A DNA stretch of 64,000 nt, taken from assembly GCA_014800685.1 (NCBI GenBank), contig JAAVFQ010000020.1:1-64000 (forward strand), given 5' to 3'. Below, piece by piece: positions 47,214 to 62,528 of the stretch (positions are counted from its first letter, which is position 1; each line of letters starts with the position of its first letter). Source of the DNA: Bacteroidales bacterium. Lineage in GTDB: Bacteria > Bacteroidota > Bacteroidia > Bacteroidales > Muribaculaceae. Position numbers and translations under genes: made by a program. The notes beneath the pieces were generated by a model, which did not search any database, had not been told where the DNA came from, and worked only from the letters and a program-made list of their open reading frames with translations.

Positions 47214-47245
47214 TTTGATAATCAGGAATATTTTTACTAACTTCG
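47214..47245 (+). promoter_or_regulatory. Promoter of the second giant gene
   Basis: TTTG (47214-47217), 20 nt, TAACTTCG (47238-47245), one mismatch from the -7 consensus. The leader would be about 137 nt. Confidence 0.55.
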
Positions 47246-47388
47246 CGTCAAAACCCAGACCAACATTTACAACAAAAGTCTATCAGAACAACCTAAATTT
47301 CAAGTATAGCATAAATCATTTATCGAAATACAGACATTTGTTTATCACAAACAATATTTTTTATAACATACAAATTAACTACAAATCC

Positions 47389-50300
47389 ATGACAAGCAAA
47401 ATCCTGACACTGGGCCTTGCCGCCCTTATCGGATGCTCCGCTCTTTTACCGGCGGATGCCGTGGCCAAAAAGCACCAGAGAGTGCTCGGCGACGGCTCTC
47501 TACCCATGGTGAAGGGCGTTGACAAAAATTCCCCGATGGCTCGGCATCGAGCCGAACGCGGCACCAGACAGCTTAACAGTCTGCATGCCGAACGCTCCGG
47601 TCTCCTCGACCTGCGTCGCTACAAACCTATGAAGGAGCGCGCTGCCTCCACTCGCTCTATGACCAATCCCCGCGGTCATTTCATCGGCGCTGTGGGCTCT
47701 TACGCCGCTATGGAGTATTTCAACCAGGCCTTCCTCGGCACTATCGATGCCAAAACCGGCCACGTGGAAAGCCTCTTCACTTCCGGCGCTCTGCTCAATG
47801 GCAACGACTATGACATCCAGGGTGGATTCGTGCGAAACGGTATCTATTACACCTGTCTGCTCGAAGGTGACGACCAGGTGGTGTGGGCCCGCTTCGACAT
47901 CGAAACCGGAAGCCAGCTCCCTCCCATCAGATTTGACTCTTCGGCTTTCGCTTATGCCTATTCCATGACCTACAATGAGGCTGAAGACCTCGTCTATTGC
48001 CTCTCTATCGACCTCACGAGCGGCGCCGACAATATGCTGGTGGTCTTCAATCCCGCAGGCAACTTCGACCTCGTCTCGGCCGTCAACCTCAACACCTCTA
48101 ACTTCGTAGCCGGCATTGCCTATAACCCTAAAGACCAGCAGGTATATGCCTTTGACGACTCCGGACGCATCTCCATAGTGGAGAGTGGCAAGCCCACTCT
48201 TATCGAGGCCGGCGAATTCCTCGGCGATGATGTGCCCATCGATAGCGGCGTGGCTACTCAGGTCTGCTATAGCCCTCTGGATGAATGCTTCGCCATGGTG
48301 GTCCGCGACCCGGTGAGAAAAATCATCCGTCTGGGCTTCTTCTCTGATGAAGACAACGAAGAGGCCGGCCTCTCAGCCTGGGAGATTATGGATGGTCCCG
48401 AACTTGGCAGCGCCCAGTATGTCACCCCCTATTTCATCTCTCTTGACTGCACTGACCCCTTCGCCGATAACGATGCCACAGAGATTCCCGCCGTTCCTAC
48501 CATCAACTTCGAGAAGAACGCACTCTCCGGCACCATAACTGTCACTGTCCCCTCCTACTACTATAGCGGCGCCTCTATCCCCGCTACCGAGAAGGTGAAA
48601 ATGACAGTCAATATCGATGACAAAGAGGCTCTCGCCGGAGACTTCGCTCCCGGCTCCGTGCAGACCATCAATTCCACTCTCGCTCAGGGCGAACACGTGA
48701 TGACCATCTCCTGCCTCACAAATGGCGAGAAGAGCCCCGTGAGAACCATTAATTTCTATGTGGGCAACGACAACCCGAAGGCTGTCACCAACCTCAACCT
48801 TGATGGCAACACTCTCACCTGGACCGCTCCCGGCGACAAGGGTGTGCACAATGGCTACGTAGACACGGCTGCTCTCACCTACGACGTCCTTATCGGCGGC
48901 AAGAAGCAGAATAGCGAGCCTATCACTGCCACTACCTATACTTTTGAAGTGCCCGCCGACCTCCAGTACACCACAATCGAGGTTATCGCTTCTGCCAACG
49001 GCGTAAGCTCTGCCGCCACCTCTACCGTACAGGTTATCGGACGCGCTCTTGACCTCCCCGTGATGCTTGAGCCCACCGTCGAGGAGTCTGACCTCTTCCA
49101 GATCATCAACGCTCCCGGCCACGACTCAATGTTCTTCCTTGATCAGGACCAGGGCTTCAACATGTTCCGCTGCTACGTAGGCTCGGCCGATACCGCCGAC
49201 AACTGGCTCTTCCTCCCCGTAGCTCACTTCCCCACCGTAGACCACCTCTACAATTTCGCCTTCACTTACGCCAATGGTATGTATGAGGGTAAAGAGCGTC
49301 TTGACATCTATCTGACCAAGAAGGTGACCACCGAGACTTCCGGCATGGTCAACATCATGCATCAGACCAGCCTTGACTCTCCCGACCCCAAATACTTCTC
49401 GCTCAACTTCGGTATCCCTGAAGCCGGCGACTGGTATATCGCTTTCCATTGCACCAGCCACGGTGAAAGCGGCGGTGGCGTCTCTCTCTGGGACTTCGCC
49501 ATCAATGGTCTCACCGGCTCTTCCGACGTGCCCGGCGACCCCCAGAACGTGACCTTCACTCCCGCTCCTCTCGGCGCTCTCAGCACCAAGATTGACATCA
49601 CTGCGCCTGTGAAGAATATCATCGGCAAGGATCTCGATGCCTCTTCCGACATCACCTTCACCGTGAAGTGCGGCGAAAACACCGTAACTGCTACCGCTAA
49701 GCCCGGACAGGTGGCTTCTACTGAAATCGCTGTCCCCTCCAACGGCTATGCCACATTCGAGATTACTCCCTCCAACAGCAAGGGTAGCGGTCTGGCTCGC
49801 GATTATCGCCACTATGTAGGACTCGACCGTCCTCTCTGCCCCACTAACATCAAGTGTGAGCCTCTGGACGACAACATGAACGTCAACATCACCTGGGACC
49901 GTCCCGGCAACGTCGGCGAGAATGGCGGATACGTGGATGCCGATGCTCTTGATTATCGCGTCTACAATGTCACCGGCGCCGCTTACCAGCAGCTTGGTGT
50001 CACCAAAGACCTCAACTACAAATTCACCGCTGCCGAGAAGCAGGAAATCTATAACCTCGGCCCTGCTGCCTTCAATGAGGTGGGCGAGTCCAGATTCTCT
50101 CAGTTTGTCAATGACATCCTCGGCAAGCCTTATCTGCTCCCGATGGTAGAGGAGTTCGGCAACAATGCCTTCAGCTACGAGCCCTTCTATCTCAACCTCA
50201 CCCCTCCCTTCGAGAACTGTGCTATCCAGCCTATCACCTCCGTTCTCTCACCCTCTTACGAGCACGGATGTACCACTGACTGCGAAGATGGTGCCATCAT

Positions 50301-52128
50301 CGTCTACAACACAAGCCGTCACAACTGCCAGGGCGAACTCGTTCTCCCCAAATTCAGCACTAAGAGCGTGGAGGATGCTACCTTCTCACTCCGCATGATT
50401 GACTTCAAAGATGCTCCCGAAGTAGAACTCTGGGGACGCTGCGCAGGCAACAATGACCTCAAGCTCTTCGGCAAGTTCACTCTCAATCATCCCGCCAAGG
50501 GAGAATGGGTAGACGCTGAAGTGGTCATCCCCGCTGAATATCTCGACAAGGGCTGGGTGCAGTGCGTACTTCGCTTCAACCTGACCACCGCAGCTGCCGA
50601 GTATGCCTTCATCGACGGCTACTCAGTGTCACAGAACATTGACACCGACCTCGGCATCAAGAGCGTCTCAGGCGCAAGCACAGTCTACACCGGCGAGCAG
50701 TATTCCTACTCTATCAATATGGTAAATGGCGGTAAGGAACTTCTCCGCGTAGGCCAGGGCTCTCTTGAGATCTCACTTCTCGACAAGGATGGCAACCGCC
50801 TCACCTATCAGAAGATGTCTACTCCCCGTATCCTCCCCGTCACCGACATCTTCTTCAACTACGACGTTCATGTGCTGGAGAACTATGCCGCAGTCTCTCC
50901 CCTCACCCTCGAAGTGAAGGCATACGTGGATGGCGACGAAGTGGAATGGAACAATAACGCTTCTGTCACTATCAACGTGCGCGACAACGAGGCTCCCGTG
51001 GTGCGCGACCTCACCGCCAAGTGGGATGACGACTACTCAAAAGTAGACCTCTCATGGAGCGAGCCTGACCTCGACCACTCCGGCTATGACGGCTTCGAGC
51101 TCCTTCAGGGCTTTGACAATAGCGACAAGCTCGGTCAGTTTGTCAATGTCGACATGGACAAGAAGATACCTTTCTGCTTCGATGGTCTCCGCTGGGAGGG
51201 CGACAACACCCCGATGGCTTGGCAGGTGATCGACACCGATGAGGTATATCCCTGGAAGAACGACCCGCGTCTGGGCGCTCACGGCGGCCACAAGTATCTT
51301 ATGGCCCGTAACCCTGAGTATGACCTCAATACCGACGAGAACAAGACTCAGGCTGCCGACTGGCTCATTTCTCCCGAAGTGGTGCCCGGCTCAGAGCTCA
51401 CTTTCTGGTATGGCACTATCGACTCTTCTCTCACCGAGTATATCGAACTCTGGGTGTCTTCTACCGATGACACTCTCGGCGATGAGATTGTAAAGGCAAG
51501 CGAGGAGACAAGCGTAGGCGCTACTTGCGGTTCATTCCGCTATGTACGCACCTTCTCCAAGTCAGGAGAAGACGCATGGGAGGAAGTGAAAGTAACGCTT
51601 CCGGCCGATGCCAAGTATTTCGCTCTCGTATATCGTTCTATCGACGGCTTCGGCGTAATGCTTGACGACCTCACATTTGACCAGGCCAAGACTGTCCGCT
51701 CCGAACTCGACCACTATGCTATCTGGTCTCTCACCAACAATGACTGGAAGACCTGGGCATGCGTAGCCGATGATCTCCACACTACTAACTTTACCGACAC
51801 CAAGGCAAGCAAGGATGTCACCAACACTTACTACGTGATAACCTACGTGAAGAGTGGCGATTCCTTCGTTGGCGGTCCGAAGTCTAATCCTGCTAAGGTG
51901 TATGGCCTCGGTGCTGAAAGCATTGACAATGCACAGCGCGGTGTGAGCGGCGACAAGGGTCAGATCATCATCCGCGGATATGAGGGCAACGTAGCCCGCA
52001 TCTTCATGGCTGACGGACGCCTCGTGCGTGAGACTACTCTGACCTCAGAGTCTCAGAACATCAGCCTCGCTCCCGGCATCTACGCCGTGAGAATCGGCAA
52101 GGCAGACTATAAGGTTATCGTGAAGTAA
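47389..52128 (+). CDS. Giant secreted multidomain protein, T9SS-like tail (paralog)
   Basis: A 1579-residue protein from ATG 47389. The upstream frame to 47215 lacks a plausible start and would cross the promoter. Its signal segment TLGLAALIGCSALLPADAVA could be cleaved after DAVA, or act as a lipobox (LIGC). Domain order matches the minus-strand paralog: propeller-like region, FN3-like blocks (GNDNPKAVTNLNLDGNTLTW, then GYVDTAALTYDVLIGGKKQN), the anchor domain (FSKSGEDAWEEVKVTLPADA) and tail GIYAVRIGKADYKVIVK. The strong C-ending codon bias suggests high expression. Confidence 0.8.
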   Translation: MTSKILTLGLAALIGCSALLPADAVAKKHQRVLGDGSLPMVKGVDKNSPMARHRAERGTRQLNSLHAERSGLLDLRRYKPMKERAASTRSMTNPRGHFIGAVGSYAAMEYFNQAFLGTIDAKTGHVESLFTSGALLNGNDYDIQGGFVRNGIYYTCLLEGDDQVVWARFDIETGSQLPPIRFDSSAFAYAYSMTYNEAEDLVYCLSIDLTSGADNMLVVFNPAGNFDLVSAVNLNTSNFVAGIAYNPKDQQVYAFDDSGRISIVESGKPTLIEAGEFLGDDVPIDSGVATQVCYSPLDECFAMVVRDPVRKIIRLGFFSDEDNEEAGLSAWEIMDGPELGSAQYVTPYFISLDCTDPFADNDATEIPAVPTINFEKNALSGTITVTVPSYYYSGASIPATEKVKMTVNIDDKEALAGDFAPGSVQTINSTLAQGEHVMTISCLTNGEKSPVRTINFYVGNDNPKAVTNLNLDGNTLTWTAPGDKGVHNGYVDTAALTYDVLIGGKKQNSEPITATTYTFEVPADLQYTTIEVIASANGVSSAATSTVQVIGRALDLPVMLEPTVEESDLFQIINAPGHDSMFFLDQDQGFNMFRCYVGSADTADNWLFLPVAHFPTVDHLYNFAFTYANGMYEGKERLDIYLTKKVTTETSGMVNIMHQTSLDSPDPKYFSLNFGIPEAGDWYIAFHCTSHGESGGGVSLWDFAINGLTGSSDVPGDPQNVTFTPAPLGALSTKIDITAPVKNIIGKDLDASSDITFTVKCGENTVTATAKPGQVASTEIAVPSNGYATFEITPSNSKGSGLARDYRHYVGLDRPLCPTNIKCEPLDDNMNVNITWDRPGNVGENGGYVDADALDYRVYNVTGAAYQQLGVTKDLNYKFTAAEKQEIYNLGPAAFNEVGESRFSQFVNDILGKPYLLPMVEEFGNNAFSYEPFYLNLTPPFENCAIQPITSVLSPSYEHGCTTDCEDGAIIVYNTSRHNCQGELVLPKFSTKSVEDATFSLRMIDFKDAPEVELWGRCAGNNDLKLFGKFTLNHPAKGEWVDAEVVIPAEYLDKGWVQCVLRFNLTTAAAEYAFIDGYSVSQNIDTDLGIKSVSGASTVYTGEQYSYSINMVNGGKELLRVGQGSLEISLLDKDGNRLTYQKMSTPRILPVTDIFFNYDVHVLENYAAVSPLTLEVKAYVDGDEVEWNNNASVTINVRDNEAPVVRDLTAKWDDDYSKVDLSWSEPDLDHSGYDGFELLQGFDNSDKLGQFVNVDMDKKIPFCFDGLRWEGDNTPMAWQVIDTDEVYPWKNDPRLGAHGGHKYLMARNPEYDLNTDENKTQAADWLISPEVVPGSELTFWYGTIDSSLTEYIELWVSSTDDTLGDEIVKASEETSVGATCGSFRYVRTFSKSGEDAWEEVKVTLPADAKYFALVYRSIDGFGVMLDDLTFDQAKTVRSELDHYAIWSLTNNDWKTWACVADDLHTTNFTDTKASKDVTNTYYVITYVKSGDSFVGGPKSNPAKVYGLGAESIDNAQRGVSGDKGQIIIRGYEGNVARIFMADGRLVRETTLTSESQNISLAPGIYAVRIGKADYKVIVK

Positions 52129-52592: not shown

Positions 52593-53060
52593 TTAGAGAT
52601 TCAGGGGAAGAGCGGATGTGCGTTTCACTTCGGCCATGACGAAGGTAGAGGTCACGGATCCGATAGATTTGATTCGGCCGAGCACCTCGATGACAAATTC
52701 GCGGTAGTACTGCATGTTGGGAGCATAGATTTTCAGCAGGTAGTCAAACGCCCCGGCCATACTGTAACATTCGGCCACTTCGGGGATATCCTTCACCACA
52801 TTCATGAAGTCGATTGCCGCGTCGGTGCTGTGAGAGACGAGCTTGACATTGCAGAAGACAGAGAAGCCGAGATTAAGCATATCGGGATTGAGCACGGCCA
52901 CATATCCCTTTATGACGCCGTCTTTCTCGAGCCGCTTAATGCGCTCATAGACAGGAGTGGTGGAAAGGTTTACTTCGGCGGCTATTTCCTTAGTGGTCTT
53001 CTGGGAATTCTGCTGGAGTATCTGGAGAATTTTAAGGTCGATTGCATCTAAATGTGCCAT
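52593..53060 (-). CDS. Lrp/AsnC-family transcriptional regulator
   Basis: A 155-residue regulator. The N-terminal winged helix-turn-helix is DAIDLKILQILQQNSQKTTK, with EVNLSTTPVYERIKRLEKDG as recognition part. The C-terminal RAM domain (about 70-150) has the strand pattern GYVAVLNPDMLNLGFSVFCN and a small-molecule binding region near PEVAECYSMAGAFDYLLKIY. Such proteins respond to amino acids and often autoregulate. Its promoter is back-to-back with an orphan promoter at 53162-53193. It may control that transcript and the reductase operon; this is inference. Confidence 0.9.
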   Translation of the reverse strand: MAHLDAIDLKILQILQQNSQKTTKEIAAEVNLSTTPVYERIKRLEKDGVIKGYVAVLNPDMLNLGFSVFCNVKLVSHSTDAAIDFMNVVKDIPEVAECYSMAGAFDYLLKIYAPNMQYYREFVIEVLGRIKSIGSVTSTFVMAEVKRTSALPLNL

Positions 53061-53463: not shown

Positions 53464-54264
53464 CTACCGTCTGATATTCTTATCGAGCAGTTCGGTCTTG
53501 ACAAGCATTCGCACGGGAGTAGGCATCACACCCACGAAGAGAATCGAGAGGCGATTGAGCCATCCGTTGATATACTGCTGTTTGCCCCTGAAGAGTCTTT
53601 TCAGCGCCTGACGGGTGAATTTTTCGGGTGTCTGCAGGGCATGAATTTTCAGCGCCAGCTTCTGCAGATTAGTGGGAAGGCCGAAGAGGTCTGTGGCAAT
53701 GCCTCCTGGACAAGCCACCATTACATTGACATTGCGGGGCCTCATCTCATAGTGGAGAGCGCGAGAAAATACGCGTATGTAGGCTTTTGTGGCTGCATAC
53801 ATGGCCAGTCCGGGCATAGGCATCCAGCAGGACATAGAAGACATGTTCAGGATCCACCCTCCGCCGCCGGCGGCAAAACGGCGCGCAAATGTACGGCTCA
53901 GATGAGTCACGGCACTGACGTGCAAATCTATGAAGGCATCGATTTTGCGTTCGGAAGTCTCCGTGATAAGGTCAAAGGAGAAAATGCCGGCGTTATTGAT
54001 AAGAATCTCCGGTCGAAGCTGATGAGCATCCAGATATATTTCTATTGCCTTGACAGCCTCGCGCTCCGTGAGGTCAAGGCAAAGGGTATAGGTGCGCACC
54101 GGGAAGGCCTTCTCTATCTCGGCGCCCGCCATTTTGAGCTCACCATTCTGATTGCTTATCATGACCAAGTCACAACCATTGGCGGCCAGCCGTGTGCAGA
54201 ATTCTTTTCCTATGCCGGAAGAGGCACCGGTGACTATAGCTAATTTCCCCTTTATCTTCTTCAT
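53464..54264 (-). CDS. SDR-family hydroxysteroid-type dehydrogenase
   Basis: A 266-residue classical short-chain dehydrogenase. Cofactor motif TGASSGIG at 12-19, NNAG at 90-93, catalytic Ser143 (ILNMSSMS), Tyr156 and Lys160 (MYAATK). It resembles the 17-beta/3-beta-hydroxysteroid dehydrogenase 12-like branch. It is last in the operon behind the OYE and the 5-alpha-reductase homologue. The expected reaction is NAD(P)-dependent oxidoreduction of a steroid or bile-acid hydroxyl; 3-beta is the guess from context. The 109-bp gap to the OYE holds an inverted repeat. Confidence 0.8.
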   Translation of the reverse strand: MKKIKGKLAIVTGASSGIGKEFCTRLAANGCDLVMISNQNGELKMAGAEIEKAFPVRTYTLCLDLTEREAVKAIEIYLDAHQLRPEILINNAGIFSFDLITETSERKIDAFIDLHVSAVTHLSRTFARRFAAGGGGWILNMSSMSCWMPMPGLAMYAATKAYIRVFSRALHYEMRPRNVNVMVACPGGIATDLFGLPTNLQKLALKIHALQTPEKFTRQALKRLFRGKQQYINGWLNRLSILFVGVMPTPVRMLVKTELLDKNIRR

Positions 54265-54373
54265 CTTATTCCTTCTGGTAAGTGAGAAAAATTAATAATT
54301 CAGACTACACCGGGCAACCGGTGAAAAAACTTTACTGACGTCCTGCGCATCCGCCCGTGCAGAGAATAAAATT

Positions 54374-55597
54374 CTATCCTTTGGCCTTTATCTCCTCTAT
54401 TTCGCGGAGAATGCGGGGCGGGAGGTTGTCCAGATGCTTATGGCAAGCCATCTCTCTGGAATACATACGGGCTATGCAGTAGTTGACATGGTCACATCCG
54501 CATCTCTGCTCGCCGGCACGCATCCTGTTGACAAAATCGGGCTCATTAAGCAGCGCGCGCCCCATCTGCACAAAATCGAAGCCCTCATCGAGCACTCTGT
54601 CGGCGTTGCTACGGCTCACCACACCCCCCACATAAACGAGTTTGCACTTCAGAGCCTCACGAAATCTCAGTGCATCCTCAAGAAAATAGAGTTCGCGGAA
54701 TGGCACCGTGGGAATCATGAAGCGTCCGGCCAGCCTTACGCCATATTTGAGCCATAATTGCTTCATATAGTAGGTCATGCTATAGATGGGCATTTCGCCG
54801 CGCATCACATACATTGGCGCTTTGCTTACGAATCCTCCGGAGAGCACGAGGGCATGCGCCCCGAGGCGTTCGAGTTCGCGCGCCACAGTGAGGCAGTCGT
54901 CTATCTCAAGCCCCCCCTTGAAGCCATCGCGCATATTGGTCTTGACGAGCACTCCCATGTCTGAGCCGGCAGCCTTCATCACCTCTTCCATACACATCTG
55001 CATGAAGAGCATACGATTTTCCAGGGGACCGCCGAAGCGGTCGCGGCGACGGTTGGTATATGGTGAGAGGAACTGCGATATCAGATAGCCATGGCCTGCA
55101 TGAACCTCCACGCAGTCAAACCCGGCATCCCTTGCCGTGCGCACAGCCTCTCCAAAGGCTACAGCCAATCCCTTCAGCTCATCCTCACGCAGGCCACGCG
55201 CCCACGTGGGTGAATAGAGATTAAATCCCGTAGAGGCACCGACGGGAGTACCCCCTGCCGTAGAGCGGTGAGTCATATTGCCACAGTGTCCTATCTGGAT
55301 AGAGGCTTTTGCTCCGGCGGCATGAATGCCGTCGGTAATCTCGCGCAAAGAGGGGACAATTTCCGGTCTGAGCCAAAGCTGGGTATCGAACGAGAGAGCG
55401 GAGCGGCAGATGCCGGCGTAGGCCAGCGTGGTCATGCCCACTCCGCCGCGCGCCACGCTGAGATGATAATCGCGCAGCATGGGCGTGGGGCCATTGTCTT
55501 TTCCCATACCCTCGAAGGCTGCCGAACGGATAGTTCGGTTGCGGAGCGTCACCGGACCTATATTATCGGGAGTGAAGAGTAGCGATTCTTTGCTCAT
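54374..55597 (-). CDS. Old Yellow Enzyme-family flavin oxidoreductase
   Basis: A 407-residue single-domain OYE that binds FMN in a TIM barrel. The substrate site EVHAGHGYLISQFLSPYTNR has His166, His169 and Tyr171; the family signature TNRRRDRFGG follows at 181-190. Unlike BaiCD-type 2,4-dienoyl reductases it lacks the second FAD domain. The Cys set of the iron-sulfur motif is altered: C366, C368, C374, C385, with Val371 where a Cys is usual. In this operon it is the candidate 5-beta-reductase for 3-oxo-delta4 steroids. Confidence 0.8.
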   Translation of the reverse strand: MSKESLLFTPDNIGPVTLRNRTIRSAAFEGMGKDNGPTPMLRDYHLSVARGGVGMTTLAYAGICRSALSFDTQLWLRPEIVPSLREITDGIHAAGAKASIQIGHCGNMTHRSTAGGTPVGASTGFNLYSPTWARGLREDELKGLAVAFGEAVRTARDAGFDCVEVHAGHGYLISQFLSPYTNRRRDRFGGPLENRMLFMQMCMEEVMKAAGSDMGVLVKTNMRDGFKGGLEIDDCLTVARELERLGAHALVLSGGFVSKAPMYVMRGEMPIYSMTYYMKQLWLKYGVRLAGRFMIPTVPFRELYFLEDALRFREALKCKLVYVGGVVSRSNADRVLDEGFDFVQMGRALLNEPDFVNRMRAGEQRCGCDHVNYCIARMYSREMACHKHLDNLPPRILREIEEIKAKG

Positions 55598-55669
55598 AGC
55601 TGAATATATTTCAAGAAAGGATTGAAATTTAATATATTCTGTTTAGGGGGATGCAGGATTGCTTAAGTT

Positions 55670-56461
55670 TCAGTATAGAAAGGGGATGATAGCCTTGCGG
55701 CGAAGCGATTTATACTCGTCGCCAAACTCTCCGAGATACCTTTTATGAACCGAGCGGGCACGCGGGCCGAGATTGGCGAAAGTCCAGAGGGCGAAGACCA
55801 GACCGGCTGCCGACCATGAGAGGATGGCAAAGCCAACCCATTCCGTCAGCTCGCCGAGATAGTTGGCGCAGGAGACGTAGCGGAACATTCCGCCGCGAGG
55901 TATGTAGTGGCCTGAGTCGCCTGGTTTGCGCAGATGACGAATGATATAGTCCGAACGGAGATTAATCCACATCCCGCAGAGAAAGATGAGAGTGCCGAGG
56001 ATGAAGAGGGGCGAGGCGAGCCAAGAGGGAGAATACATATCGGGCGGCGCGATATAGAAGAGCCACGCCCCGAGAAGATAGGCGTTGATAACGTTGAAGA
56101 TCAGCCCCATGAGGATAATGGCCCAGGGCATCTTGTTGCGTCCTTTTATCAGAAGCGGAAAGATAAATGAGCGCTGGAAATAGTGAAGCAAATAGAGCGA
56201 CGCCATCACCGCGGGAGCGGTCTGAGCGGCCCGGGGGGAGGTGAGCCATAGCAGAAGCATGGCGAAGAAGGCCGGAGCCTCCATCACAATCCATCCGGGG
56301 CGATTGGGCATAGAGGGGCCCCAGGAGGAGGAATAGTTTATGCCGTATGGGGCATTGAGCCTTTGCAGGGCTATGAAGACGATAACTGCAAGGACAGCCA
56401 TCACCCCGAGGACGGCATAATAGAAATCGGGTGTAAAAATAACATTCATCAGTAAGGGCAC
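55670..56461 (-). CDS. Steroid 5-alpha-reductase homologue
   Basis: A 263-residue polytopic protein (GTG start; ATG four codons in). It matches human SRD5A enzymes in several blocks: HYFQRSFIFPLL (human HYFHRTF), IPRGGMFRYVSCANYLGELT and EWVGFAILSWSAAG, ending FGDEYKSLRRKAIIPFLY. Counterparts of the SRD5A2 catalytic Glu57 and Tyr91 are Glu61 (MEAPAF) and Tyr94. It should reduce the delta4 double bond of 3-oxo steroids or bile acids to the 5-alpha form with NADPH, in the inner membrane. It is first in the operon with the OYE (72-bp gap) and SDR. Confidence 0.85.
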   Translation of the reverse strand: MPLLMNVIFTPDFYYAVLGVMAVLAVIVFIALQRLNAPYGINYSSSWGPSMPNRPGWIVMEAPAFFAMLLLWLTSPRAAQTAPAVMASLYLLHYFQRSFIFPLLIKGRNKMPWAIILMGLIFNVINAYLLGAWLFYIAPPDMYSPSWLASPLFILGTLIFLCGMWINLRSDYIIRHLRKPGDSGHYIPRGGMFRYVSCANYLGELTEWVGFAILSWSAAGLVFALWTFANLGPRARSVHKRYLGEFGDEYKSLRRKAIIPFLY

Positions 56462-56488: not shown

Positions 56489-56519
56489 CAAAGGTAATGA
56501 TTTTTTCCGGCCTGTGAAA
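56489..56519 (-). promoter_or_regulatory. Candidate promoter of the reductase operon
   Basis: On the minus strand TACCTTTG (56489-56496) is a perfect -7 box; 20 nt upstream is TTT (56517-56519) without the usual G. The leader to the GTG start at 56461 would be about 20 nt. Confidence 0.45.
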
Positions 56520-56547
56520 ATCCTCGGGTAGGAAAATGGGTTGGGGT

Positions 56548-56586
56548 CTAAAACGAAGAAAGGGGCGCACCTCTCGGTGAGTCCCC
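56548..56586 (-). terminator. Hairpin terminator upstream of the reductase operon
   Basis: On the minus strand GGGG (56583-56586) and CCCC (56562-56565) enclose CACC-GAGA-GGTG (56568-56579), followed by TTTCTTCGTTTT. It ends a transcript that comes from further upstream. It may be alternative to a second stem described at 56573-56604. Confidence 0.6.
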
Positions 56587-56760
56587 TGCCTTACGGCTAC
56601 CGAGACATGGCAGTCTGCGGCGTGGCCGTCGATTTAATTTTTAACCCAAAATTTAGACAATAATAAGTAAAGCTTTCTCTTGTCGCCGATGGGCTGTGGG
56701 CGTGACTGGGTCACACTTCGGCACATCCTGCGATTCGGTCTGCTATGATTTCACTTTTTC
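56573..56760 (-). other. Structured intergenic region upstream of the reductase operon
   Basis: A stem CTCGGT/ACCGAG (56573-56578 with 56599-56604) encloses GCC-GTAA-GGC on the minus strand, a GNRA-type loop. It overlaps the terminator hairpin, so only one can form. Further along, GCCGA (56685-56689) pairs with TCGGC (56718-56722) and encloses GTGAC-TGG-GTCAC (56702-56714). No ORF covers it. The rest of the gap to 57027 is AT-rich with no feature I trust. It could be an attenuator or a non-coding RNA. Confidence 0.35.
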
Positions 56761-57027: not shown

Positions 57028-58239
57028 TCACGCCACGGATTTTTTCCGCATCAGCTTGTCGGTTATAGCGCAGACGCAAGAGTCCGACCATACATTTTCT
57101 GATGTTTCCACCATGTCTATTATAGTATAGATAGGGAGAATAACGCCCATTATACTAATGTCGGCACCGATGCCCGACATCAGCGAAAGAGTCAGGAAAT
57201 AGCATCCCATAGGGACTCCGGCATTTCCCACGGCAGAAATCACCGAGATGAGGAGCCAGACGAGCATTGTGCCCACAGAAAGTGGCATACCGTTATTCTG
57301 CATCACATAGAGGGAGGTGCAGAGAATGAAGGCTGCACATCCGTTCATATTGACCGTAGTGCAGAGCGGAAGCACGAAGCGCGAAATTTTCTTGTTGACG
57401 CCAAGACGCTTTTCAGCATTCTCCATAGTGACGGGAAGTGTAGCGGCCGAGCTCTTTGTGAAGAAAGCCATGACCACTGCAGGAATCATTCCGGAGAATG
57501 TGCGCACGGGATTGAGTCGGGCGAGCAGCAGAAAGAGAGGAAGAACCACAAACATCTGCAGCAGATTGCCCGAAATGATGACAGCCGTATATTTGCCGAG
57601 AGAATCGGCCATTACCCCCGCGCCGGCCTCGGCGATTAGTTGAGCTGCAAAGGCCATGATGCCCAGCGGAAGAATGGCTATCAGCCAGCGGATGAGCGTG
57701 AACAGAATCTCCTGCACGCCTGCCAGTCCGCTCACTATTATCTCTTTGGGACGCGACTCCGGCATACGGGAGATGGCTATGCCCACCGCAAAGCAGATGA
57801 TGAGAAGGGCGAGCACGTTCCCCTCCAGCAAGGGGCGCACGAGATTGTCAGGAACGACAGTGAGGATATGGTCGGCGTAAGAAGTGGAAGCCGTCGGAAG
57901 GTCGGCGCTCTTCTCAGCGGCTATGACCGAGGCGGGCAGGTTGCCGGGAGAGATGAGGAGATACATGCCGAGCCCGACAGCGGCCGCCATGAAAGTAGTC
58001 AGCAGCGTATAGGTGATCGCCGTGCGGAATATGCGCCCGAGTTCCTTGCCGCCACCGAGCGAGGCGAGCGTGGTGACCACCGCGACGACTATTGTGGGGA
58101 CGGCAAGCAGGCGGAAAAGGCGCGTGTAGATGGTGGCGATAAAGTTCATTGCCGTATCGATGGCCCCGATATGGAGCAGGCCGAGCACTATGCCGACGAC
58201 AAGCGCTCCCAGCCAGATAAGTATCTGCTTCTTTTTCAT
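57028..58239 (-). CDS. DAACS-family amino-acid:cation symporter with altered substrate site
   Basis: A 403-residue inner-membrane protein of the dicarboxylate/amino acid:cation symporter family. HP1 carries TKSSAATLPVTM. The usual NMDGT motif is NMNGCA (297-302), with Asn299 for the Asp. In the TM8 region D375-x-x-E378-T-x-x-N382-x-x-x-D386 aligns with D394, R397, T398, N401 and D405 of GltPh, and the substrate-carboxylate Arg397 is Glu378. It is unlikely to carry aspartate or glutamate; a neutral or cationic amino acid is more plausible. It sits alone. Confidence 0.85.
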   Translation of the reverse strand: MKKKQILIWLGALVVGIVLGLLHIGAIDTAMNFIATIYTRLFRLLAVPTIVVAVVTTLASLGGGKELGRIFRTAITYTLLTTFMAAAVGLGMYLLISPGNLPASVIAAEKSADLPTASTSYADHILTVVPDNLVRPLLEGNVLALLIICFAVGIAISRMPESRPKEIIVSGLAGVQEILFTLIRWLIAILPLGIMAFAAQLIAEAGAGVMADSLGKYTAVIISGNLLQMFVVLPLFLLLARLNPVRTFSGMIPAVVMAFFTKSSAATLPVTMENAEKRLGVNKKISRFVLPLCTTVNMNGCAAFILCTSLYVMQNNGMPLSVGTMLVWLLISVISAVGNAGVPMGCYFLTLSLMSGIGADISIMGVILPIYTIIDMVETSENVWSDSCVCAITDKLMRKKSVA

Positions 58240-58505: not shown

Positions 58506-61500
58506 ATGATTACTAAAAGATACAACCTAATCAATAATGCCGGTGGATGGCTCGTATTCCTCATAGCCCTGGCCACCTACTGGCTCACCCTTGAGCCTAC
58601 GGCATCCTATTGGGACTGTGGCGAATTTATCATCCAGGCCGACAAACTTGAAGTAGGCCACCCGCCCGGCAACCCTATTTTTATGCTTACGGCGCGATTC
58701 TTTGCGAATTTCGCGCCTGACGCTCAGCACGTATCGCTGATGGTCAACGCCATGTCCGGATTGCTGAGCGCGCTGACCATTCTGCTCCTCTTCTGGACCA
58801 TTTCGCATCTTGTGCGCAGGCTTATAGTGCGCGACAATACCTCCGCAGAGCTCACCCTGCAGCAAATGCTCGTCATCTTCGGCTCTGCGGCCGTAGGCTC
58901 GCTGGCCTACTGCTGGAGCGACACTTTCTGGTTCTCAGCCGTGGAGGGTGAGGTATATGCCTTCTCATCTTTCTGCACTGCGCTGGTGTTCTGGCTGATA
59001 CTGAAATGGGAAACCCGTGCCGACTCGCCACATTCCGACCGCTATCTCATTCTTATCGCCTACATTATCGGCGTCAGCGTAGCCGTCCATCTGCTTAACC
59101 TGCTCTGTATCCCGGCCATTGTCCTCGTCTTCGCCTACCGCAAATACAAGGACATGGACGTGCTGAAATCCCTTATAGCCCTGCTGATATCTTTCGCTAT
59201 CATAGTGCTCGTGCTCTATGGTCTCGTGCCGGGATTCATCAAGGTGGCTCAGCAGTTTGAGCTCAACTTCGTCAACGGCTCCGGGCTCCCCTTCAATAGC
59301 GGCACAATCATTTACACCATAGTGACGCTCTGCGTCTTCGTCTGGGCCCTCTTCTCTCTTACCCGCGCCAAGTCGGCCATGATGATGATTATCTCCTTCC
59401 TGGCAGCCGTCACTCTCTCAGGAATGCTCTTCATAGGACATTCGCTCTGGGTGGGAATATTTCTCACCGCCACTCTGCTGGGCTATCTGCTCCGCGCCGC
59501 CAAGACAAACCGTCTGCCCGTCAGAGTGCTCTCGCTTGTCATGTGGAGCATTGCAGTAATTTTCGTAGGCTATTCCAGCTATGCCCTGATCCTCATACGC
59601 TCCAATGCGCGCACCCCGATGAATCAGAATGCACCGGACAACGTCTTTGACCTCGCATCCTATCTCAACCGTGAGCAATATGGCGAAACTCCGCTGCTCT
59701 ACGGACCGACATTCGATGCCGGAGTGATGCAAAAAATGATAGGGGCCTATACCGACACCATAACGATTCGTGAAGACGGCACCCCGGTCACACTCACCAC
59801 ACCGCAATATCAGTCTATTCAGGAGCCCGGGAAGGCGCTCTACACTAAAGGCGTTCACGGATCTGCCCCCACATCGGCGCTCGGCTTCCTCTCTGACTCC
59901 GAAAATGCCGAGAATGCCCGCCTCGCCGCATCCGGAAAGGACTATTACGCCAAGCGAGATTACGAGCCGGAGGCTAAATACAATTCCGAGCTCCAGATGA
60001 TACTGCCGAGACTCTACAGCTCGATGCACAGGTCGGAATATGCCCGCTGGGTCAATCTTGACACCCTCCCCGAAAATCTCAAGACTCTGACCGCCATTGA
60101 CGCACAGACAGGCGAGAAAATCCCTGAGCTCGACACTCGTCGCCAGCCTGAGATAAATGAGGTGTCAGGCACTATTTATTACCCCCAGAAAATAGGCTAT
60201 AAACCCACGTTCAGCCAGAATCTCGCCTATTTCATCAATTACCAGCTCAACCACATGTATCTCCGCTACTTCATGTGGAACTTCGCCGGCCGCCAGAACG
60301 ACCTTCTCAATCAGCAGCAGGAGCTTGACGCCGGAAACTGGATTTCCGGCATTCCGGCCATTGACAACAGCCGCCTCGGCGACCAGAGTCTGCTCCCCCC
60401 CGAACTCGGAAAAGAGAATAAGGGGCATAACGTCTATTATATGCTCCCCTTGCTCCTGGGCATCATTGGCCTGCTCTGGCAGGCTTTCGCCGGACGCCGG
60501 GGCATAGAGCAGTTCTGGGTCATCTTCTTCCTCTTCTTCATGACCGGCATAGCCATCGTGCTCTATCTGAACCAGACTCCTATGCAGCCCCGCGAACGAG
60601 ACTATGCCTTCGCAGGCTCATTCTATGCCTTCGCCATCTGGATAGGTATGGGAGTGGCCGGCCTCTGGAGAATAATGATGTGGGCGCTGGCCCGACGCCG
60701 CAAGAAGGATGCCGCCATCCCGGCCGACACAACGCCGGCGGAGGCCGCTCGCCACGAAGAGGAATTGCAGCTTTCAGCTTATACTGATGAGCCGGCGGCT
60801 CTCCGGCGCTCTTCACGCATCTGCGCCGCCGTGGCCTGCCTGCTCGGCATTATAGTGCCTCTGCAGATGGTAAGTCAGACCTGGGACGACCATGACCGCT
60901 CAGGCCGCTATGCCGCAAGAGACTATGCCATCAACTATCTCGAAAGCCTTGAGCCTAACGCGATAGTATTCTGCAACGGAGACAACGACACCTTCCCCCT
61001 CTGGTATGTTCAGGAGGTGGAGGGCGTGCGTCCCGACGTGAGAATCATCAACCTCTCCTACCTCAATTCGGCATGGTATACAGACCAGCAGCGAGTGCAG
61101 GCCTACTCGGCAGCTCCCATAGACATTCAGGCCAAACCCTCGGATTATGCCTACGACCGTATCGGAGTGGTGCTTTTCAATCCTCAGGTGCGCACCCCGA
61201 TGCCTCTCAATGAAGCCCTACGTCAGGCATACAGCGGCGAAGCCAAGGTGGGAGATTATCCCTATCCGGCTATCCCCACCTCTATCGTCACCATTCCGGT
61301 AGACAAAAAGGCCGTTGTGGCACGAGGCCTCGTGGCTCCTCAGGATACTGCCCGCCTTGTCAATGAAATAGCCATCGACCTCGCCGGCACCTCGACCTCC
61401 GGACAGCGTGGCTACCTCACCATGAGCGAGGTGATAATGCTCGACATCATAGCCACCAATGCCGCCAAAGGATGGCCCCGGCCGATATATTGGTGTATGA

Positions 61501-62528
61501 CTGTGGGCAATGAGTATTATCTCGGCCTGGACGACTATATGCGCTCTACAGGCATGACTCATCAGCTCGTGCCCACCATGCAGGAGGCTTACGCTCCGCG
61601 CACGGACAGAGCCTACGACGTCATCACCAAGAAATACCGATGGGGTGGAGCCGAAAATGCCCGACCGGGGAGCGCCCCCTACTTCGATGAGACAGCCGGG
61701 CGCATGCTCACTACGGTCAGAAGCTCAATGGCTGACCTCGCCCTTCAGTTTATTGCCGAGGGAGACGAGGCACGCGAGAAGGGTGACCGCTCGCTGGCCC
61801 GGACTGACTATCAACGCGCTCTGGAAGTGATTCGCCTCATGGACCGTATGGTAGGCGAAAACACCATGAAATATCCTCTGAGCATCGCTCTCAACGTGGC
61901 TGAAATATATGGCGAGCTCGGCGAGAAAGATCGCCTCGGACAAGCCTCTCTCAAGGCTGACGCGCGCAAGATTCTCAAGGGGCTGATGGAGCGCTATGCC
62001 ATCTATGTGGCCTATAACCGTGCCATGTCCATGCAGTTTGCCAATCCCAGCTTCACGCTCGAAACCGGATATATCCCCTATCGCTATTATCGCATCGTGG
62101 AGCTCTATGAGCAGTTTGGTGGCAAAGCTTCCGACGCTGAGGCCATCCTGCGCCCCTACGGCATAAAACTCGCTGAACTGCGCAGCAACTATGAGCAGCT
62201 GCTCGGAGCAGGGAGCCTGCCGGCAGGGAATGATGCTGCGGGAGCGGATGTCGTAGATGTCAACGCCTATGCCGACGAGATACTCAAATATGCCGAGATA
62301 GTGGCTCATCTCCAGAGCCTCTCGCCGGCAGACTATGCCGCCACTTCAGAGGAGGAACGAAACATCGACTCGCTCTTCAATGAGATACTCAAATTCTACC
62401 TCGACAATGGCGGAAACGCCGACCGTCTCAACGCCAATGAGAATTACAAGGCGGTAGACCGCGAGCGCTCCAGACGATTGAGCGATCAGTATCTCAAGGC
62501 TCACCCGGAGCAGATGGTGGCCGACTGA
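58506..62528 (+). CDS. DUF2723/GT117-type membrane glycosyltransferase
   Basis: A 1340-residue membrane protein. The DUF2723 N-terminus is clear (ALATYWLTLEPTASYWDCGE, then FIIQADKLEVGHPPGNPIFM), with about twelve helices up to residue 860, interrupted by a soluble loop. The C-terminal 450 residues are soluble and helical, with many Glu/Arg. The family is placed in GT117 and thought to glycosylate proteins or lipids in Bacteroidota; the acceptor here is unknown. It leads a three-gene plus-strand run with a deacetylase (23-bp gap) and an epimerase. Confidence 0.85.
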   Translation: MITKRYNLINNAGGWLVFLIALATYWLTLEPTASYWDCGEFIIQADKLEVGHPPGNPIFMLTARFFANFAPDAQHVSLMVNAMSGLLSALTILLLFWTISHLVRRLIVRDNTSAELTLQQMLVIFGSAAVGSLAYCWSDTFWFSAVEGEVYAFSSFCTALVFWLILKWETRADSPHSDRYLILIAYIIGVSVAVHLLNLLCIPAIVLVFAYRKYKDMDVLKSLIALLISFAIIVLVLYGLVPGFIKVAQQFELNFVNGSGLPFNSGTIIYTIVTLCVFVWALFSLTRAKSAMMMIISFLAAVTLSGMLFIGHSLWVGIFLTATLLGYLLRAAKTNRLPVRVLSLVMWSIAVIFVGYSSYALILIRSNARTPMNQNAPDNVFDLASYLNREQYGETPLLYGPTFDAGVMQKMIGAYTDTITIREDGTPVTLTTPQYQSIQEPGKALYTKGVHGSAPTSALGFLSDSENAENARLAASGKDYYAKRDYEPEAKYNSELQMILPRLYSSMHRSEYARWVNLDTLPENLKTLTAIDAQTGEKIPELDTRRQPEINEVSGTIYYPQKIGYKPTFSQNLAYFINYQLNHMYLRYFMWNFAGRQNDLLNQQQELDAGNWISGIPAIDNSRLGDQSLLPPELGKENKGHNVYYMLPLLLGIIGLLWQAFAGRRGIEQFWVIFFLFFMTGIAIVLYLNQTPMQPRERDYAFAGSFYAFAIWIGMGVAGLWRIMMWALARRRKKDAAIPADTTPAEAARHEEELQLSAYTDEPAALRRSSRICAAVACLLGIIVPLQMVSQTWDDHDRSGRYAARDYAINYLESLEPNAIVFCNGDNDTFPLWYVQEVEGVRPDVRIINLSYLNSAWYTDQQRVQAYSAAPIDIQAKPSDYAYDRIGVVLFNPQVRTPMPLNEALRQAYSGEAKVGDYPYPAIPTSIVTIPVDKKAVVARGLVAPQDTARLVNEIAIDLAGTSTSGQRGYLTMSEVIMLDIIATNAAKGWPRPIYWCMTVGNEYYLGLDDYMRSTGMTHQLVPTMQEAYAPRTDRAYDVITKKYRWGGAENARPGSAPYFDETAGRMLTTVRSSMADLALQFIAEGDEAREKGDRSLARTDYQRALEVIRLMDRMVGENTMKYPLSIALNVAEIYGELGEKDRLGQASLKADARKILKGLMERYAIYVAYNRAMSMQFANPSFTLETGYIPYRYYRIVELYEQFGGKASDAEAILRPYGIKLAELRSNYEQLLGAGSLPAGNDAAGADVVDVNAYADEILKYAEIVAHLQSLSPADYAATSEEERNIDSLFNEILKFYLDNGGNADRLNANENYKAVDRERSRRLSDQYLKAHPEQMVAD

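Follow-up and report, generated by a model that had tools for sequence, protein, structure and literature searches.

Organization of the Three-Gene Locus

A window of 64,000 nucleotides (contig JAAVFQ010000020.1, positions 1 to 64,000) from a Bacteroidales bacterium of the family Muribaculaceae was analyzed, and a putative operon for steroid or bile acid conversion was studied on its minus strand. The operon consisted of the genes for a steroid 5-alpha-reductase homologue (5AR), an Old Yellow Enzyme (OYE) and a short-chain dehydrogenase (SDR), which are listed here in the order in which they are read.

55670..56461, minus strand: 5AR, a membrane steroid 5-alpha-reductase homologue; an open reading frame (ORF) of 263 amino acids with a GTG start at 56461
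54374..55597, minus strand: OYE, a flavin mononucleotide (FMN) ene-reductase with a C-terminal iron-sulfur (Fe-S)-type segment, candidate 5-beta-reductase; an ORF of 407 amino acids with an ATG start
53464..54264, minus strand: SDR, a classical short-chain dehydrogenase, candidate hydroxysteroid dehydrogenase; an ORF of 266 amino acids with an ATG start

The intergenic gaps were 72 bp between 5AR and OYE and 109 bp between OYE and SDR. The Pfam families were Steroid_dh for 5AR (1.2e-44), Oxidored_FMN for OYE (5.2e-47) and adh_short for SDR (4.1e-42). The ORF calls and the Pfam matches agreed with an earlier sequence-only reading of the window as to the genes, their order, strand, spacing and family identities, with a 3-beta role of the SDR kept as a candidate assignment only. 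The start of 5AR is more likely an in-frame ATG at 56449, giving a protein of 259 amino acids, because the N-terminus of a relative (locus L036) fits it better.

5AR Resembles Steroid 5-alpha-Reductases in Sequence, Fold and Active Site

The 5AR protein scored 152.3 bits against PF02544 (cut-off 22.6) and gave a weak match to DUF1295 as well (23 bits, cut-off 20.4). It was the only PF02544 match in its own genome at E-values up to 0.001. When solved structures were searched by phmmer, the best match was PbSRD5A (7c83, 4.6e-57), followed by human SRD5A2 (7bw1, 2.3e-44), and the enoyl-CoA reductase art-1 came after both (1e-12). An AlphaFold (AF2) model of 5AR, with a mean pLDDT of 84.8, was compared with the PDB by Foldseek. 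The steroid 5-alpha-reductases 7c83 (E 7.9e-16, TMq 0.85) and 7bw1 (E 6.5e-13, TMq 0.77) were the sole fold matches at E < 0.001.

The sequence-only reading had placed Glu61 and Tyr94 at the catalytic positions of SRD5A2, which we take to be Glu57 and Tyr91 in the numbering of that enzyme. This was confirmed by the alignments to 7bw1 and 7c83, since Glu61 fell on the Glu in the 'QELP' of these chains and Tyr94 on the Tyr in their 'HYF/HYL'. Both residues were invariant in two alignments, in 17/17 rows of one and in all 34 Bacteroidales rows that the other contained. The SRD5A enzymes and the window 5AR have in common both the fold and this Glu and Tyr pair, to which we presume a catalytic role in SRD5A-type enzymes.

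A tree was built from 20 gut-type 5AR rows including the window, 14 of the 29 loci of a distant 5AR clade and three solved chains. The gut-type clade (20 rows) was supported at 99/99 and stood separate from the distant clade, whereas the places of art-1 and SRD5A2 were unsure because both lay on long branches. A fatty-acid reductase reading of 5AR was rejected on the sequence ranking, the remoteness of art-1 and the fold matches to steroid enzymes alone. A grouping of 5AR with phospholipid or fatty-acid reductases, which the sequence-only reading had named as the outcome that would speak against it, did not appear as far as the comparison was run; the one fatty-acid enzyme included, art-1, was a far outlier to 5AR.

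OYE Has a Reshaped Fe-S-Type C-Terminal Segment

The OYE protein scored 161.2 bits against PF00724 (cut-off 27). Residues His166, His169 and Tyr171, which form the HxxHxY pattern that we take to be the active-site motif of OYEs, were invariant in 38/38 rows. Simple OYEs were ranked first by E-value in the Foldseek search. The protein aligned out to residue 407 with the Fe-S OYEs trimethylamine dehydrogenase (2tmd), 2-naphthoyl-CoA reductase (6qkg) and 2,4-dienoyl-CoA reductase (1ps9). Several PETN-reductase-like OYEs also aligned, reaching residue 388; as far as this residue, the C-terminal segment does not set the Fe-S members apart.

The cysteines were followed in an alignment of 118 rows, each longer than 370 amino acids. 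Cys368, Cys374 and Cys385 were invariant in 118/118 rows, and so was Cys105, which lies within a GHCGN stretch. The C-terminal motif of Fe-S OYEs of the TMADH/DCR type is assumed here to be Cx2Cx2-3Cx11-12C. The place of its second Cys (residue 371) was taken by Val in the window and, in the printed rows read by eye, was never Cys, so that three of the four usual cysteines of the motif were found. The window OYE thus resembles the Fe-S OYEs, BaiCD among them, in having the OYE barrel and a C-terminal segment, but differs from them in lacking a second flavin domain and one usual cysteine; the latter is a new detail. The identification of the OYE as BaiCD was rejected: the protein scored 167.9 bits against the BaiCD equivalog NF041087, the cut-off being 825, and this 642-position model includes a second domain that the 407-residue OYE does not have. 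The OYE paralogues in the same genome were remote, with 31% identity at best.

The SDR and Its Possible Exchange in the Position after OYE

The SDR was aligned with window-type homologues in 66 rows spanning the query from before residue 15 to past residue 230. The motifs of classical SDRs, presumably TGxxxGxG, NNAG and Ser-Tyr-Lys, were all recognized: Gly13, Gly17 and Gly19 as well as Ser143, Tyr156 and Lys160 were present in 66/66 rows, Asn90 in 65/66 and Asn91 in 64/66. Residue 115, where we would expect the Asn of the usual catalytic tetrad, was His in 66/66 rows. This His is a new detail of the window SDR, unlike the SDR of the Phocaeicola cluster described below. The best 60 of 176 matches among solved structures were generic SDRs, hence the stereospecificity cannot be read off from them. 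The SDR paralogues in the same genome were remote (best 28% identity).

A comparable cluster was found in Phocaeicola massiliensis (OY726067.1, locus L164), where 5AR, OYE and SDR genes lie on one strand in the same order and the 5AR and OYE proteins are 54.5% and 70% identical to those of the window, respectively. The third gene of that cluster, at L164:11021-11875 after OYE, encodes another type of SDR than the window's. SDRs of this Phocaeicola type also followed OYE in loci L063, L076 and L079, and stood behind a window-type SDR in loci L062, L069, L070 and L078; these are the loci where the Phocaeicola type scores higher, and tandem pairs may be more frequent. The two types suggest a lineage-specific exchange or pairing of dehydrogenases.

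Conservation of the Unit in Related Genomes

The same-family survey covered 197 genomes, drafts at least 85% complete that were taken from a larger group. The 5AR gene was present in 56 of them, OYE in 57 (E-values up to 1e-90), both in 56 and neither in 140. In 47 of the 56 genomes OYE came next after 5AR on its strand, the matched stretches being 7-87 bp apart. The two genes form a conserved unit.

The named records of one genome-contig scan gave at least 587 matches, and the best 80 loci were examined. Many loci represented one contig twice (e.g., L064/L118, L071/L126 and L038/L089), so counts over loci are not independent. OYE lay downstream of 5AR on the same strand in 73/80 loci, in 71 of them within 300 bp. 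A window-type SDR followed OYE in 51/80 loci (49 within 300 bp), and the complete order of 5AR, OYE and SDR, as it occurs in the window, was kept with the SDR within 300 bp of OYE in 49/80. The recurrence of gene order and content across many genomes indicates that the arrangement is not a chance one.

Seven of the 80 loci had no OYE, two of these being at contig ends. In loci L122-L124, L129 and L154, 5AR was present without an OYE within ~6 kb downstream; the genes next to 5AR in L122 looked, by eye, like those of a cytidylate-kinase-type protein and MutL.

Among 20 order-level loci, OYE was found in 19 and a window-type SDR in 13. Of the six OYE-bearing loci that had no window-type SDR, L063, L076 and L079 carried the Phocaeicola type and three carried neither. 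In the distant 5AR clade of other Bacteroidales (29 loci, L002-L030, 37-44% identity), no OYE was seen in the flanks of up to ~1.5 kb, the stretch available downstream of 5AR being just 933-1497 bp.

Promoter and Surroundings of the Operon

Two sequence elements were recognized ahead of 5AR.

56489..56496, minus strand: TACCTTTG, a Bacteroidota-type -7 promoter element, read from the sequence
56520-56517: TTTT at the -33 place, 24 bases before TACCTTTG

The consensus of the Bacteroidota -7 element is taken to be TANNTTTG. It was counted in 111 stretches upstream of 5AR, which were left after 17 near-duplicates had been removed from 128. The consensus occurred in 74/111 stretches, the window's own among them, against a mean of 15.1 (standard deviation 3.2, highest 23) in 100 dinucleotide shuffles. 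In a histogram of positions, 73/87 occurrences lay in the interval from -70 to +30 relative to the base that aligns with window residue 1, and the commonest spacing was a TTTG 24 bases upstream of TANNTTTG (21 cases). An earlier count with another cut and window had given 81/121 against a mononucleotide-shuffle mean of 11.7. These data support a core promoter of the Bacteroidota type at the head of the operon, for which the sequence-only reading had also named a promoter.

The count of upstream 8-mers was dominated by this core promoter. The 8-mer CAAAAGTA, found in 10/111 stretches against 0.5 expected, was the promoter element read on the other strand. A mild enrichment was recorded for AACTATTT and TTGAGAAA, each in 9/111 stretches against 0.9 and 1.1 in shuffles, respectively; these could belong to an operator that a minority of loci possess.

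The following genes flank the operon.

57028-58239, minus strand, as the operon: sodium:dicarboxylate symporter-family gene, upstream, 566 bp away
52593-53060: Lrp/AsnC regulator gene, downstream, 403 bp from SDR

The Lrp gene was rare near the operons of relatives, being found in 2/80 best loci, of which 67 extend more than 3.7 kb beyond 5AR, and in 0/20 order-level loci. Its strand and position varied: in L082, the closest relative among the loci listed, Lrp adjoins the operon on the opposite strand in a convergent orientation, and in L103 it lies ~4 kb upstream. Lrp was therefore rejected as the regulator of the operon.

The surroundings were also inspected for structured RNA. A stretch of 101 nt at 56540-56640 (minus strand) folded better than most shuffles (z -3.24, 2/200) into a compact two-hairpin fold with a U-rich sequence after it, and may act as a terminator or encode a small RNA. 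An mRNA started at the promoter element (56496-56489) would not include this stretch, which lies wholly upstream of that element. An Rfam search of the surroundings gave no family match, and a known riboswitch or RNA family was rejected. Across the loci compared, the blastn search with the folded upstream stretch (E 1e-3) returned nothing beyond the copies from the window itself, so a conserved upstream RNA was rejected too, and a genomic repeat at 56520-56660 was dismissed since the genome holds one copy. Over its full length, the 551-nt upstream region was not unusually structured (z -1.37, 8/100 shuffles as good), and two other upstream pieces were unremarkable (z -1.25 and -0.14). Between 52500 and 57100 there were 5 terminator-like sites against 4.2 by chance and 7 sigma-70-like sites against 4.2; none of the five terminator-like sites directly follows SDR.

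Further from the operon, an ORF of 1637 amino acids with a cleaved-adhesin domain and a C-terminal DUF6383 lies at 47215-52128 (plus strand) on the Lrp side, and in L082 a protein resembling it, as judged by eye, adjoins Lrp. A protein of 1340 amino acids of the TMEM260-like protein O-mannosyl-transferase family is encoded at 58506-62528 (plus strand).

Discussion

The gene content of the window matches a cluster published for gut Bacteroidota that consists of 5AR, an OYE-type 5-beta-reductase (5BR) and a 3-beta-hydroxysteroid dehydrogenase (3-beta-HSDH), as the sequence-only reading had noted. According to PMC10382948, the cluster of 5AR, an NADH:flavin oxidoreductase and 3-beta-HSDH serves the formation of isoallo-lithocholic acid (isoallo-LCA); strains of Parabacteroides merdae, Odoribacter laneus and Bacteroides dorei converted 3-oxo-delta4-LCA to isoallo-LCA, and no allo-LCA derivatives were formed by P. 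merdae with a disrupted 5AR. PMC12697870 also speaks of 5BR/5AR/3-beta-HSDH clusters in Bacteroidetes, and parts of the pathway are repeated in PMC12692668, PMC11539388 and PMC12292970. The published cluster unites the same three protein classes in gut Bacteroidales, whereas the window belongs to another family, Muribaculaceae, and its SDR subtype may differ. An indirect pathway and the distinct Firmicutes enzymes BaiP and BaiJ are described in PMC9645264. BaiP and BaiJ catalyze on 3-oxo-delta4 bile acids the same reaction that is proposed for the window 5AR, but by that account they are flavin adenine dinucleotide-dependent oxidoreductases distinct from the membrane-associated 5AR of Bacteroidetes.

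The sequence-only reading had also suggested that such a unit may not have been described in this group. This can be upheld at best for the family name Muribaculaceae and within the open-licence papers searched; the cluster itself has been described for Bacteroidota. No paper on the operon in Muribaculaceae was found among those open-licence papers, which is weak evidence of absence, and PMC9750977 names the family for bile salt hydrolase only.

The window operon is probably the form that the Bacteroidota operon for isomerisation of steroid A/B rings takes in Muribaculaceae. The direct basis consists of the gene identities, the fold, the active-site residues, the adjacency and co-inheritance of the genes and the promoter element found in most relatives. 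The substrate, cofactor, direction and 3-beta stereochemistry are proposed by analogy with the published relatives. The OYE would interconvert 3-oxo-5-beta and 3-oxo-delta4 steroids, the membrane 5AR would reduce the delta4 bond with NADPH to give the 5-alpha ('flat', allo) product, and the SDR would turn the 3-oxo group into a hydroxyl. The bile acid route would then run from 3-oxo-LCA through 3-oxo-delta4-LCA and 3-oxo-allo-LCA to (iso)allo-LCA, and steroid hormones may be treated alike. Related gut bacteria are already known to carry this set of genes, of which the window operon is a well-supported further example.

Several observations weigh against this assignment. The likeness to the assayed proteins of P. 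merdae, O. laneus and B. dorei is by gene class, not by alignment. These species, of which B. dorei is, we assume, now placed in the genus Phocaeicola, were not named among the best 80 of at least 587 loci, and P. massiliensis was compared instead. The SDR of that species and the window SDR are of different types, with 25.8% identity over 221 residues, so the 3-beta specificity cannot carry over to the window SDR. In 22 of the 73 OYE-bearing loci no window-type SDR came afterwards, in some of them due to a contig end. The 5AR and OYE genes were not adjacent in 9 of the 56 same-family genomes, where OYE lay on another contig or strand in seven and ~4 kb off in two, and one genome (G295) had OYE without 5AR. 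Lastly, the catalytic Glu of 5AR is preceded by Met in 34/34 Bacteroidales rows, gut-type and distant clades alike, whereas SRD5A2 and PbSRD5A have Gln there.

It is possible, although doubtful, that steroid hormones or plant and animal sterol derivatives (delta4-3-ketosteroids) are the natural substrates and that bile acids are converted only incidentally. Enzymes of the SRD5A type are general reductases of delta4-3-ketosteroids, the nearest solved relatives of 5AR are steroid 5-alpha-reductases, and the window sequence holds nothing that selects bile acids. However, the published Bacteroidota act on 3-oxo-delta4-LCA, and the disruption of 5AR in P. merdae stops the conversion, as reported in PMC10382948. 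The genome of the window also carries a PF02275 gene (bile salt hydrolase/acylase family, E 2.6e-35), which is compatible with exposure to bile acids; PF02275 matches occurred in 4/14 control genomes as well.

A more specific arrangement, which we consider unlikely, is that 5AR and OYE form an obligate two-step A/B-ring isomerase working from 5-beta to 5-alpha, with OYE as the oxidase and lineage-specific SDRs setting the stereochemistry of the 3-hydroxyl. In that case an unusual Fe-S centre would sit between the three C-terminal cysteines and Cys105, with electrons passed on without a second flavin domain, and SDR types particular to each lineage, in some cases two in tandem, would fill the slot after OYE. 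Since the SDR types differ, Muribaculaceae would then make a 5-alpha product unlike that of Phocaeicola.

A reduction of a non-steroid enone of endogenous or dietary origin, be it a fatty-acid, isoprenoid or xenobiotic compound, with the steroid labels being family names only, is very improbable. The OYE and SDR families are promiscuous, and the absence of OYE from the short flanks of the distant 5AR clade would fit such a role. Against it, the presence of 5AR in the family is patchy (56/197 genomes), which makes a housekeeping lipid role unlikely; art-1 is remote to 5AR when set beside PbSRD5A; and the loss of allo-LCA derivatives upon 5AR disruption is reported in PMC10382948. The regulated unit of the sequence-only reading, under the control of the neighbouring Lrp protein and of structured leader RNAs, is most improbable, for although Lrp lies close to SDR and adjoins the operon in L082, one upstream stretch folds well and AACTATTT and TTGAGAAA are enriched beyond the promoter, Lrp is missing from nearly all related loci or stands on the opposite strand or ~4 kb off, and the folded stretch lies upstream of the promoter with no Rfam family, blastn match in relatives or second genomic copy.

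As stated in PMC10382948 and PMC12697870, isoallo-LCA inhibits Gram-positive pathogens, and both isoallo-LCA and its biosynthetic genes were reported to be lower in inflammatory bowel disease. The basic discovery has thus already been made, and the operon in the Muribaculaceae version proposed here widens the host range and adds details of the enzymes. Its interest lies in the reshaped Fe-S segment of OYE, the exchange of SDR types after OYE and the presence/absence split within the family. Muribaculaceae are abundant in mouse guts, and this split, with 56 genomes carrying the pair and 140 carrying neither gene of the 197, offers a natural comparison for strains that may shape the 5-alpha steroid pool in animals.

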